Virus record (IMG/VR): IMGVR_UViG_3300020450_000054
Span: 1-34,684 of that record
Reading direction: 5' to 3' (one strand)
Origin: a virus
Length of the DNA: 34,684 bases
Position numbers and translations under genes: made by a program. The stretch's first letter is position 1. Every line of letters starts with the position of its first letter. Under the pieces are notes generated by a model that saw only the letters and a list, made by a program, of their open reading frames with translations, ran no database searches and had not been told where the DNA came from. Below, in pieces: positions 2,529 to 13,032 of this stretch.

Positions 2529-2954
2529 ATGAAACTTTTGATTTCTGAAATTATTAAGAAGGCATCTAATGCCAAAACTAAAGCAGAGAAAATTAAAATA
2601 CTACAAGAGAACAATAGTCAAGCACTACGTTCAGTTCTTAAGTGGAATTTTGAATCAAAGATACTCTCTGATATACCAGAGGGTGATGTTCCTTTCAAAA
2701 GAAATGATGCACCCATAGGTACAGAACATACTATGCTTGAGAGGGAAGGTAAAAATTTATGGAGATTTATCAAAGGTGCTAACTCTCTTACCAGATTTAA
2801 ACGTGAACAGTTGTTCATACAAATGTTAGAAGGTCTTCATGAAAGTGAAGCAGATATAGTATGTTTGGTAAAGGATAAGCAATTGCATAAAAAGTATAGA
2901 ATTACAAAAGCAGTTGTTACTTCAGCATTTCCTTCTATACAATGGTCAGAATGA
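2529..2954 (+). CDS. DUF6433 family protein
   Basis: A 141-residue protein matching, from memory of the family, the DUF6433 proteins conserved in T4-like cyanophages. Typical features are an N-terminal helix with a KTKAEKIKILQEN-type stretch, the core PFKRNDAPIGTEHTMLERE, and a C-terminal FIQMLEGLHESEADIVCLVK followed by the basic KDKQLHKKYRIT. The function is unknown. It is the first gene after the strong promoter at 2480-2508 and overlaps the next gene by four bases (ATGA). No recognisable Shine-Dalgarno sequence precedes the ATG. The family assignment is by motif recall and could be settled with a profile search. Confidence 0.8.
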   Translation: MKLLISEIIKKASNAKTKAEKIKILQENNSQALRSVLKWNFESKILSDIPEGDVPFKRNDAPIGTEHTMLEREGKNLWRFIKGANSLTRFKREQLFIQMLEGLHESEADIVCLVKDKQLHKKYRITKAVVTSAFPSIQWSE

Positions 2955-3286
2955 CAACAGAAACTCCAACTAAATCTAGAGTATCATTTACTCCCGAAGA
3001 ACAAACAGATTATCAAATAAGAGTATTCAAAACTGATATTTTAGAAAAAGATATTGACAAGACAAAGTATCCACAGGGAACTACTCTTGTCATTTATAGT
3101 ATAGGTGATGAGATTATTAATGATCTTGTACTTTCTCAAAAGTCAGTACATATATTTGATGCTTATTATGATAAACTCAGAACATTAAGTGGTAAACTAT
3201 TGCACTTAAACAATTGGTATGGTACAATCAGTCCAAAGATGTGGGATGAAAATCCTAAACCTAAACAAAAAAAGAAAAGAAAATGA
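2951..3286 (+). CDS. Hypothetical protein
   Basis: A 111-residue soluble protein (MTTETPTKSRVSFTPEEQT) ending in a very basic tail, KPKQKKKRK. I do not recognise the family. The start at 2951 makes an ATGA overlap with the preceding stop and is preferred over an in-frame ATG nine bases upstream (2942). The central part (VFKTDILEKDIDKTKYPQGT, then LVIYSIGDEIINDLVL) looks like a mixed alpha/beta fold with no catalytic motif. The lysine-rich end suggests nucleic-acid contact, which is inference. It also overlaps the next gene by ATGA. Confidence 0.7.
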   Translation: MTTETPTKSRVSFTPEEQTDYQIRVFKTDILEKDIDKTKYPQGTTLVIYSIGDEIINDLVLSQKSVHIFDAYYDKLRTLSGKLLHLNNWYGTISPKMWDENPKPKQKKKRK

Positions 3287-3474
3287 TTGATGATCTAGAA
3301 ATTAAAAGTAGAGAGGTATGTATGACCTCCTTGTCTCACAATGCTATTGAATTTGATAACAAAGCATATACTTTTTGTCAAAAAGCAATTGAAGTTGGTG
3401 ACATCAAATGGAATACTTCTGAAGAAGATATTCAAACGATGTATGGTTACTATAAAGACAAAGGATTTATTTAA
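3283..3474 (+). CDS. Small hypothetical protein (63 aa)
   Basis: A 63-residue acidic protein that begins in an ATGA overlap with the previous gene and ends three bases before thyX. It contains two cysteines (C13 and C32) and a C-terminal helix with ISW-free polar composition (EEDIQTMYGYYKDKGFI). I recognise no domain. Its position inside a run of overlapping genes is the evidence that it is translated. It may be a small regulator or thyX-linked protein, but nothing in the sequence shows this. Confidence 0.65.
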   Translation: MIDDLEIKSREVCMTSLSHNAIEFDNKAYTFCQKAIEVGDIKWNTSEEDIQTMYGYYKDKGFI

Positions 3475-3477
3475 TCT

Positions 3478-4104
3478 ATGGTAAAACTTATTAGTATTAC
3501 TCCTGACGCTGAAAAGACAATGGGATTCATCGCTAGGGTATCAAACCCTAAGAACCAAGACAACCCAAATGTATCAGGACTTTTGAAATATTGTATTAAA
3601 CATGGGCATTGGTCTGTGTTTGAGCAAGCACATATGACTCTAGAAATAGAGACAACCAGAGGTCTTGGAGCACAAATTTTAAGACACAGATCATTTACTT
3701 TCCAAGAATTTAGTCAAAGGTATGCTGATACCAATTTACTTGGTGCTATACCTGTACCAGATTTGAGGAGACAAGACAAAACTAATAGACAAAATTCTAT
3801 CAATGATATCCCCAAAGTTCAGAAGGAGAATTTACAAAAAGAAATCTCTCGTTACTTCGCTGAGGGAATTGACTTATACAATGAACTTATACGTGAGGGT
3901 GTTGCGAAGGAATGTGCGAGATTTGTTCTCCCGTTAGCAACTCCAACTAAAATATACATGACTGGTAGTATAAGGTCATGGATACATTACATAGAACTAC
4001 GTTCTGCTCATGGTACTCAAAAAGAACACATGGATATAGTAGAAGAATGTAGGAATGTATTTAAACAAAATTTACCTGTAGTAACAGAGGCATTATCATG
4101 GTAA
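3478..4104 (+). CDS. thyX: Flavin-dependent thymidylate synthase ThyX
   Basis: A 208-residue ThyX, which makes dTMP from dUMP with methylene-tetrahydrofolate, NADPH and FAD, supplying thymidine for phage DNA synthesis. The signature stretch RHRSFTFQEFSQRY (69-82) is the ThyX motif RHRxxxxxExSxRY, and a conserved HWSVFEQAHMTLEIE block precedes it. The C-terminal KECARFVLPLATPTKIYMTG and SWIHYIELR stretches correspond to the nucleotide-binding region with the conserved Arg in ECARFVLP. Length is normal for the family. ThyX replaces T4's td in many cyanophages. The gene overlaps heme oxygenase by seven bases. Confidence 0.96.
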   Translation: MVKLISITPDAEKTMGFIARVSNPKNQDNPNVSGLLKYCIKHGHWSVFEQAHMTLEIETTRGLGAQILRHRSFTFQEFSQRYADTNLLGAIPVPDLRRQDKTNRQNSINDIPKVQKENLQKEISRYFAEGIDLYNELIREGVAKECARFVLPLATPTKIYMTGSIRSWIHYIELRSAHGTQKEHMDIVEECRNVFKQNLPVVTEALSW

Positions 4105-6468: not shown

Positions 6469-6727
6469 ATCTAAAAACATTAATGAATTAATTGACGACA
6501 CTTTTATGGACAAGAACAAATTCTCTATGACTATTGAAAATATAGTTAAAGATAGCAATAGATCCTTGAGTTATATTGATGCCATCGTTGATTTCTGTGA
6601 GTCCAAAGACATAGAGGTTGATACAGTTACTAAATTGATAGCACCTACATTAAAGGAAAAGATTAAAGCAGAAGCAATTAAATTAAATTTTATAAAGAAA
6701 ACTTCTAAAGCAGTATTGCCAATATGA
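6458..6727 (+). CDS. 33: gp33, late-promoter transcription coactivator
   Basis: An 89-residue protein matching the phage late-transcription coactivator family (T4 gp33). Visible features are the N-terminal acidic helix (NINELIDDTFMDKNKFSMTI), the conserved SYIDAIVDFCESKDIEVDTV (38-57), then KLIAPTLKEKIKAEAIKLNF. gp33 binds the RNA polymerase beta flap and couples it to the sliding clamp so that gp55 can read TATAAATA promoters. Several such promoters occur in this window. It is shorter than T4 gp33 (112 aa), as is usual in cyanophages. Gene order gp33-gp59-gp32 also supports the call. Confidence 0.85.
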   Translation: MPSKSKNINELIDDTFMDKNKFSMTIENIVKDSNRSLSYIDAIVDFCESKDIEVDTVTKLIAPTLKEKIKAEAIKLNFIKKTSKAVLPI

Positions 6728-7296
6728 GTGCCTTTGATTGTTATGTAATTTACTTAGCATTAAAAGCACACTTCTCTAGGAAAGGATACGATTACTTTAA
6801 ATACAATGGTCGTACAAAAGCATCAGTAGAAAATTTTAATGTAAGAACAGACAGATACTTCTTTGAGAAACTTACCAAGAGATATTCTAAAGAAGAAATA
6901 GAATCATACTTTGTATCTAATTACTTATCTAACTCCAACCTATGGGTGGGAGAAATGAATGATAAGAACTTCCTTGATTGGAAGAAAAGGATACAGAGTA
7001 TTTCTTATTTGTATGAGAATGATTTGAAAATTATTACTGATAGGTGTGGTAGTTTAGACAATGCTATGAAATGTAAGAACTCATCACACTCTACATTAAT
7101 TAAACTATACCTTGGTGATCATATCATGCCAGAAACTATGGTATTGTTAAATAGAATTACAACTTTCATAGAAAGATATGATACACTATTAAGTGATTCT
7201 ATCTGGAAGAAAGTATCAAACCTCTTGCAAAAATATGATCCATTTGTTATAGTGGATTATAATAAAATTAAATCTATTACAATAGGAAATTTATGA
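6724..7296 (+). CDS. 59: gp59, loader of replicative helicase gp41
   Basis: A 190-residue helical protein matching T4 gp59, which binds fork DNA and gp32 and loads the gp41 helicase. The N-terminus (AFDCYVIYLALKAHF, then GYDYFKYNGRTKAS) is characteristic of the family, and the rest is helical with many Lys and aromatic residues. It is a little shorter than T4 gp59 (217 aa). The ATGA overlap with gp33, and the location just upstream of gp32, its direct binding partner, fit this role. Confidence 0.9.
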   Translation: MSAFDCYVIYLALKAHFSRKGYDYFKYNGRTKASVENFNVRTDRYFFEKLTKRYSKEEIESYFVSNYLSNSNLWVGEMNDKNFLDWKKRIQSISYLYENDLKIITDRCGSLDNAMKCKNSSHSTLIKLYLGDHIMPETMVLLNRITTFIERYDTLLSDSIWKKVSNLLQKYDPFVIVDYNKIKSITIGNL

Positions 7297-11427: not shown

Positions 11428-12117
11428 ATGAAAATCAACGATATTAAAACGCATATAATTGGTAAATATGGTATTGCCAACTCAAATAGGTATCAAATAT
11501 CATTTGTGCCTGGTCGAGACCTTAGTGGGTGGTTAAATTATTCACCAATGCAACAACCACAGTCATATGATAAGAACTGGAATACAAATAGTGGAAGAGC
11601 ACAGATATTTAGTTGGTTAGCAGATGAGATACAATTACCAGGATATAACGTTGTTACTGGAGATTTGAAGGGATATGTACCTGGCATTAATATGAAGTAT
11701 GCACACACTAAATCATTCCAAGAGTGTCAAATTGCATTCATATTAGATAGAGAGCATACACCTTATAAAATTATGCAAAAATGGGGTGAATATATTTTTG
11801 AGCATAATGATGAACCAACTATATCAGGAGAAAGAGGACGTGCAGCACCTGATTCTTATATAAAGACACGTTATTATGATGATTATACTGCAGATTTATT
11901 AATAGATAAGATTGAAACAAAAGATGAAAATGGGAAAGAAGTAGTATCAAGATATAGATTAACTAATGCATATCCATTTACTGTATCTGCTCTTACATAC
12001 TCTAATGGTCCTAATCAACCACTCAGATTTATGGTAAATTTTAATTTTGAGTATATGAGAGAACTTGATCCACCAGATGTTGATCCCACTGAGGAAATAG
12101 TTGTTGGAAATCCGTGA
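11428..12117 (+). CDS. 54: gp54-like baseplate tail-tube initiator
   Basis: A 229-residue protein with the tail-tube fold pattern of T4 gp54/gp19: SNRYQISFVPGRDL near the N-terminus, the insertion-free strands EIQLPGYNVVTGDLKGYVPG and FQECQIAFILDREHTPYKIM with QKWGEYIF, then YYDDYTADLLIDKI and the terminal LTNAYPFTVSALTYSNGPNQ plus FMVNFNFEYM. T4 gp54 is 320 aa, so this is shorter. It could also be called a gp19 relative, but its place beside gp48, gp53 and gp26 favours the initiator. It is first in the rightward late operon, directly behind TATAAATA. Confidence 0.65.
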   Translation: MKINDIKTHIIGKYGIANSNRYQISFVPGRDLSGWLNYSPMQQPQSYDKNWNTNSGRAQIFSWLADEIQLPGYNVVTGDLKGYVPGINMKYAHTKSFQECQIAFILDREHTPYKIMQKWGEYIFEHNDEPTISGERGRAAPDSYIKTRYYDDYTADLLIDKIETKDENGKEVVSRYRLTNAYPFTVSALTYSNGPNQPLRFMVNFNFEYMRELDPPDVDPTEEIVVGNP

Positions 12118-12142: not shown

Positions 12143-12844
12143 ATGGCATTACCTAAATTAGAGACCCCAACGTATGAATTGACAGTACCTTCTACTAAAA
12201 AGAAAATAAAATATCGCCCATTCTTAGTTAAAGAAGAGAAAATTCTCTTATTAGCGTTAGAATCTGAAGATGATAAAGAAATTGCAAATGCAATGAAAGA
12301 TTTGATAAGGGCATGTGTATTGACTAAAGGTATAGATCCAGATAACCTTGCTACATTTGATGTTGAATACATTTTCTTAAACATTAGAGGTAAATCTATT
12401 GGTGAAACCATTGATGTTAAAATATTATGTCCAGATGATGAAAAAACTGAAATAACTACACAAATACCGATAGATAAAATTAATGTTAGATTTACTAAAG
12501 GACATACTAATCAAATACAAGTTAGTGACGACCTTTGGGTTGAAATGAAATATCCAAACATTGATTCTCTTGCTGTACAAGAAGAAACTGTAGATGATAC
12601 ATTTAAGTTAGTATCTAAATCTATTAAAAAGATTTACAACGCTGAAGATGTGTGGGATTCTTCTACTACAACAGAGGATGAGTTTATGGAATTTATTGAA
12701 TCAATGAATAGTAAGCAATTTGCTAAAATTCAAAAGTTCTTTACTACTATGCCATCATTGAAGCATACAGTCAAAATAATAAATCCTAATACAAGGGTTA
12801 AAAGTGAATACACAATTGAGGGATTATCCAATTTTTTCATATAG
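12143..12844 (+). CDS. 26: gp26, baseplate hub assembly protein
   Basis: A 233-residue protein of the T4 gp26 baseplate family (T4 gp26 is 208 aa). The conserved start LPKLETPTYELTVPSTKKK followed by YRPFLVKEEKILLLALES is distinctive. The C-terminus is GLSNFFI, encoded over six T residues that form the heptamer T TTT TTC (12832-12838) in the correct frame for a -1 slip. Sliding back would continue, without a stop, into the gp51-like ORF. In other tailed phages the chaperone gene just upstream of the tape measure behaves this way. The zero-frame product alone also looks complete. Confidence 0.9.
   Translation: MALPKLETPTYELTVPSTKKKIKYRPFLVKEEKILLLALESEDDKEIANAMKDLIRACVLTKGIDPDNLATFDVEYIFLNIRGKSIGETIDVKILCPDDEKTEITTQIPIDKINVRFTKGHTNQIQVSDDLWVEMKYPNIDSLAVQEETVDDTFKLVSKSIKKIYNAEDVWDSSTTTEDEFMEFIESMNSKQFAKIQKFFTTMPSLKHTVKIINPNTRVKSEYTIEGLSNFFI
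12832..12838 (+). other. Candidate -1 ribosomal slippery site T TTT TTC
   Basis: In the gp26 frame the codons are AAT TTT TTC ATA TAG, so T TTT TTC has the X XXY YYZ arrangement. After a -1 slip the frame reads CAT ATA GCC CTC and stays open through 13032, joining gp26 to the gp51-like ORF. CATACC (12853-12858) and GGTATG (12889-12894) form a downstream inverted repeat. The site is seen; slippage is inferred. Confidence 0.5.
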
Positions 12845-12890
12845 CCCTCTTCCATACCTCACTTGAGACCCACATACGGATCAATTTTGG

Positions 12891-12907
12891 TATGATGCAA
12901 CATCATA
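12891..12907 (+). promoter_or_regulatory. Hairpin over the gp51-like start codons
   Basis: TATGATG (12891-12897) pairs perfectly with CATCATA (12901-12907) across a three-base loop CAA, enclosing both adjacent ATG codons. No Shine-Dalgarno sequence precedes them. This would reduce independent initiation and would favour expression by frameshift or by unwinding through upstream translation. Confidence 0.45.
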
Positions 12908-13032
12908 AGTATGGTTTCGAGGACATTAATAATATGCTTCCTTGGGAACGAGACGTATATGTTGAGTTGTTAAGACAACATCTGGAAGAGGAAAAGAAGA
13001 AATTAGAAGAACAAAGGCAACGTAACCGATGA
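12892..13032 (+). CDS. 51: gp51-like baseplate hub assembly protein
   Basis: A 46-residue ORF (45 if the second ATG, 12895, is used) reading MMQHHKYGFEDINNMLPWER and on to a Glu/Lys/Arg helix ending RQRNR. The GFEDINNMLPWERDVYVELL pattern is the PWExxxYxxLLxxHL element typical of small tail or hub assembly proteins, and the place right after gp26 matches cyanophage gp51 (T4 gp51 is a catalyst of hub assembly and is longer). It may be made mainly as a gp26-gp51 -1 frameshift fusion. It overlaps the tape-measure-like gene by ATGA. Short length and the hidden start make independent translation uncertain. Confidence 0.7.
   Translation: MMQHHKYGFEDINNMLPWERDVYVELLRQHLEEEKKKLEEQRQRNR

Follow-up and report, generated by a model that had tools for sequence, protein, structure and literature searches.

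In many tailed phages, −1 ribosomal frameshifting yields two forms of the tail assembly chaperone, one short and one long. In phage lambda these are gpG and gpGT, a short form and a −1 frameshifted long form encoded between the tail tube and tape measure genes; Xu, Hendrix and Duda reportedly described in 2004 a conserved tail-gene frameshift system which includes this pair. A related arrangement of signals occurs in the dnaX gene of Escherichia coli, where a Shine–Dalgarno-like (SD-like) element about 10 nt upstream of an A AAA AAG heptamer and a downstream hairpin accompany a shift that yields the shorter product. For T4-like phages, PMC12846349, which treats short and long chaperone forms, refers to Vladimirov, Gautam and Davidson 2022 (Virology 566:9–15) for poly-T slippery sequences in TAC-N genes. 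PMC10885494 cites the same study for T4-like phages with separate short and fused long genes. Going by these citations, a recoded tail assembly chaperone system has already been identified in T4-like phages, and the locus described here belongs to this known system.

The window, i.e. the whole stretch of DNA analysed (IMG/VR virus record IMGVR_UViG_3300020450_000054, 34,684 nt), contains a gp26 gene whose 3′ end reads AAT TTT TTC ATA TAG. The zero-frame codons over the heptamer T TTT TTC are TTT TTC, so that it stands in the canonical X XXY YYZ register in the zero frame, before the gp26 stop (Table 1). The −1 frame is interrupted 22 nt ahead of this stop and beyond it stays open as far as 13032. 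The first ATG, at 12892, comes 53 nt after the heptamer and 47 nt after the stop codon. Inspection of ORFs and sequence thus bore out the sequence-only reading, which had noticed at the gp26 end a heptamer in the exact frame for a −1 slip and a −1 frame open over the 53-base interval and the gp51-like ORF. The fusion ORF is present as claimed, but its length is 296 aa and not about 297. Judged by sequence comparison, a −1 frameshift very probably makes a gp26–gp51 fusion.

Table 1. Features at and around the gp26/gp51 junction (positions in the window).
Feature	Position	Strand	Evidence
Tail tube protein homologue, upstream neighbour	11428–12117	+	PF23849 (E 5e-20); phrog_45
gp26 (233 aa in the zero frame), predicted short form of the tail assembly chaperone (TAC-N)	12143–12844	+	PF12322; phrog_150; AlphaFold model against three solved chaperones
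GAGGGA, SD-like element; 10 nt separate its GAGG from the heptamer	12818–12823	+	GAG bias; GAGG in distant phages
Slippery heptamer T TTT TTC	12832–12838	+	81/81 loci; T6 in 134 distinct loci, −1 frame open in all
−1 frame C-terminal extension (gp51 domain) of the predicted long form TAC-NC; stop codon 13030–13032; fusion 296 aa	12838–13032	+	phrog_634 (E 9e-25); phrog_150 positions 231–280; pN/pS
Zero-frame stop codon of gp26, passed by the −1 slip in the proposal	12842–12844	+	Window sequence
Possible downstream stem CATACC (12853–12858)/GGTATG (12889–12894), begins 14 nt past the heptamer	12853–12894	+	Predicted fold (weak)
Tape-measure-like candidate, downstream neighbour, 534 aa	13029–14633	+	Several PHROG tape measure families matched weakly, over an Ala/Gly-rich stretch

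As an in-window control, three other ORFs were found to have a slippery heptamer near their end and a long open −1 frame. Such coincidences are therefore not rare in the window; the heptamer by itself proves little and was rejected as proof of a frameshift, and the question turns on conservation. In the ORF at 2942–3286, A AAA AAG stands five codons upstream of the stop, and the −1 frame continues for 62 open codons into the ORF that follows; this probably reflects ordinary gene overlap, with the ATG at 3283. Two further ORFs, 3478–4104 (ThyX-type thymidylate synthase) and 6724–7296 (helicase loader), end near A AAT TTA with a long open −1 frame, and can serve as chance controls.

With such controls at hand, slippery site and open −1 frame at gp26 could also be a chance coincidence of two adjacent genes, and the sequence-only reading had itself conceded that an open stretch of 18 codons could arise by chance. 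We fetched 80 IMG/VR loci with gp26 relatives and compared them together with the window. In all 81, gp26 ends in TTT TTC, one codon and the stop, and a T precedes the TTT. A wider census, made up of IMG/VR loci, isolates and further scans, gave 134 distinct T6-bearing loci; scans with the Cr30, T4, PG216 and K469 proteins returned few or no loci. The base after T6 is C in 129 of the 134, T in four and G in one. Beyond the gp26 stop the −1 frame is open for 54–65 codons in every one of them, while upstream of the slip site it closes within 52 nt in all but one. The expectation that slippery heptamer and open −1 frame are retained among relatives thus held without exception in the marine T4-like group (81/81; 134/134), the lineages being related to each other and the counts therefore non-independent trials. 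Chance is refuted by this conservation and is also opposed by the protein-level selection on the interval (see below); we give it next to no credence.

At the codon level, 36 lineages less than 90% identical to each other were compared. The codon before TTT is AAT, AGT, TCT or GCT: its T is invariant, the residue is not. The following TTC is fixed, though TTC makes up 29% of the Phe codons elsewhere in gp26; this constraint may partly stem from coding in the −1 frame, which presupposes that this frame is translated.

The −1 peptide, taken from the slip codon on, matches 475 phage records, and the alignments listed start at its first residue. In the window's clade no ATG, GTG or TTG occurs in the −1 frame from the gp26 stop until 12892, i.e. 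47 bases are free of start codons. We calculated pN/pS from pairwise differences within this clade. It is 0.117 for the start-less interval in the −1 frame and 0.095 for the gp51 body; the same interval gives 2.17 in the +1 frame and is without any synonymous change in the zero frame. By these substitution patterns, the interval evolves under protein-level selection in the −1 frame. Translation beginning at the first start would lose the segment ALFHTSLExHIRINFG, which is conserved and selected, and standard initiation therefore cannot make it in the window's clade.

This bears directly on the possibility that gp51 is a separate small protein, made without any fusion when translational coupling or re-initiation starts translation at an internal ATG past the gp26 stop. 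In isolate records gp51 is given an ORF of its own; none of those examined joins it to gp26. Moreover, the first start lies at +5 in 62 of the 134 loci and overlaps the stop in 20, and TRATG stop-start overlaps occur in several distant phages. In 28 loci, however, it lies 50–56 nt downstream, counted from the stop's first base, and in the window's clade, with the first start 47 nt past the stop codon, the conserved segment would be missing from the product. A separate gp51 also leaves the invariant heptamer and the GAG bias described below unexplained, and T4 gp51 is one ORF across the junction. We therefore consider exclusive internal initiation very unlikely and keep to the fusion. In loci with a start at +5 or overlapping the stop, a separate gp51 may be made in addition to the fusion.

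Upstream of the heptamer, the Glu codon at the GAGG position is GAG in 30 of the 36 lineages, compared with 27% expected from codon usage (binomial p 2e-12, treating the lineages as unrelated). GAGG recurs in the distant phages Aeh1, Vibrio PG216 and D481, and RL38J1 despite different residues (Arg-Gly). Downstream, the gp51-like ATGs do lie inside a 7-bp hairpin (TATGATG-CAA-CATCATA, 12891–12907, by inspection), as had been stated. The flanking CATACC and GGTATG are also present and able to pair, but we did not accept them as a firm stimulator: z of the downstream fold in the window's clade, about −2 at 57 nt, weakens to about −1 when 64 nt are folded, and two loci (L009 and L010) lack the outer stem in their predicted fold.

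The hairpin was evaluated by shuffling the synonymous codons of the −1 frame and comparing fold strength. For Kyanoviridae-like relatives, it exceeds what the protein requires in most cases, often with z of −2.4 to −5.5 (p < 0.05 in 68% of 47 loci). Tentatively, marine T4-like phages may have a dnaX-like three-part recoding cassette consisting of the SD-like GAGG, the invariant T TTT TTC and a downstream hairpin that persists despite sequence turnover between clades. The window's clade might then have swapped the short hairpin for a longer-range stem, and the start-less interval would make the fusion the sole route to a full gp51 domain. Relatives that differ in having a start close to the stop and in hairpin strength offer a natural series on what drives −1 slippage.

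The sequence-only reading had cautioned that T4 is not known to use such a system. A profile was built from 25 fusions, with T4 left out, and used to align T4 gp26 and gp51. T4 gp51 aligns over profile positions 23–281, across the junction, and T4 gp26 over 11–234 only. Independently, phrog_150 gave 13–280 for T4 gp51 and 14–235 for T4 gp26, of 282 positions. According to these alignments, T4 gp51 is the single-ORF counterpart of the fusion and T4 gp26 that of the short form. In T4, then, each of the two products has a gene of its own; these genes, 26 and 51, are divergent, and T6 is absent from the end of T4 gene 26. In another locus (L186), gp26 is 58% identical to T4 gp26 and ends GAG TTT TTT AAA TTA CTA TGA, possibly a remnant of the slippery site in a T6-less lineage.

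gp26 of the window matches PF12322 (E 2e-68) and phrog_150, the family of T4 gp26/gp51, and the extension matches phrog_634 (Table 1). The AlphaFold model covers the gp26 chain only (pLDDT 88.6). Its residues 1–96 align with 3FGX, 2OB9 and 3KLU, which are phage tail assembly chaperones (PMC9603447), at Z 8.1, 7.6 and 7.1, values which are moderate; the next match has Z 2.5. A Foldseek search with the model gave no significant E-value, and a PDB sequence search with the gp26 profile found nothing. The gene upstream is a clear tail tube gene, and the one downstream is called tape-measure-like from weak PHROG matches and has no Pfam match. Fold and, as far as the downstream gene is a tape measure candidate, gene order support the comparison with lambda-type chaperones drawn from the sequence. 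Taking sequence and model together, the gp26/gp51 pair very likely acts as tail assembly chaperones.

The frameshift might instead make a fusion whose parts, gp26 and gp51, are baseplate hub components. They are so annotated in isolate records, and genetic work cited in PMC3004832 locates T4 gp26 in the hub. The same paper, however, counts both T4 proteins among the hub assembly chaperones and describes gp51 as required yet absent from the particle. The chaperone fold of the gp26 model and the location of the short and long forms, flanked by tail tube and tape-measure-like genes, also argue against hub components, which we regard as improbable. Under the chaperone assignment, gp26 and gp51 of marine T4-like phages, labelled ‘baseplate hub’ and ‘hub assembly catalyst’, would move to tail assembly chaperoning.

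Taking the locus as a frameshifted chaperone, gp26 and the downstream −1 frame would be one tail assembly chaperone gene. The majority of ribosomes would stop at the gp26 stop and release the short form. A minority would slip back one base on T TTT TTC, the two Phe tRNAs re-pairing on TTT TTT, and would pass the stop to make the long form with the gp51 domain. The slip is probably aided by GAGG pairing with 16S rRNA and, in most relatives, may be aided by the hairpin just downstream. Both forms would hold the tape measure protein during assembly of the tail tube, like lambda gpG/gpGT. Comparison has established the conservation of the site, coding in the interval, the fold and the correspondence with T4; actual slippage, the slip rate and binding to the tape measure and tube proteins we infer.

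Junctions in other phages vary. Ackermannviridae (Vi01, L097, 3200–3405; Menlow, L090; L190–L206) have a conserved −1 ORF after gp26, LIFEIDLLSYFVMCDELK..., which is unannotated in Vi01 and Menlow. Their junctions have no dual-slip heptamer and carry an invariant RATTTTCATYTAA instead; in most Ackermannviridae loci examined, no start codon was found within 30 nt past the gp26 stop. The junction reads CTT TTT GCG TAA in Vibrio phage K469 (L095) and GTT TTT CGC TAA in VAP7 (L096). At both, the second tRNA alone could re-pair, and a start codon overlaps the stop; the VAP7 junction resembles the GTTTTT motif of PMC12846349. In Pelagibacter phage Mosig (L099) the zero frame has ten codons from slip site to stop, where three are usual, so that its short form would have a longer, unrelated tail. 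In Rhizobium phage RL38J1 (L094) an annotated repeat region (3130–3449) overlaps the gp26–gp51 junction, and the −1 frame is already open a long way ahead of the slip site.

The locus shares with lambda gpG/gpGT a short form and a predicted −1 long form, next to a tail tube gene and a candidate tape measure gene, but differs in the heptamer, and gp26 is larger than the solved chaperones. As in dnaX, an SD-like sequence precedes the heptamer by about 10 nt, and most relatives also have a hairpin downstream. In dnaX, however, the shift on A AAA AAG leads to the shorter product, whereas here that on T TTT TTC would lead to the longer one. The chaperone of phage Adele and of the Vandenendeviridae/Andersonviridae (PMC12846349) likewise has a conserved −1 frameshift, a T-rich site and a −1 frame that stays open across sequence annotated as intergenic, but with a GTTTTT motif and in another phage family. 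Reading gp26 and gp51 as one recoded gene corrects a common annotation gap. The closest described system is T4-like gp26/gp51 (Vladimirov et al., 2022), in which, as far as the citing texts convey, the protein family is the same, short and long forms occur and poly-T slippery sites have been reported. T4 itself has two separate genes without T6, compared with one gene with T TTT TTC here. What our analysis adds to this system is the window's clade, a start-less coding interval with measured selection, the GAG bias and the hairpin test.
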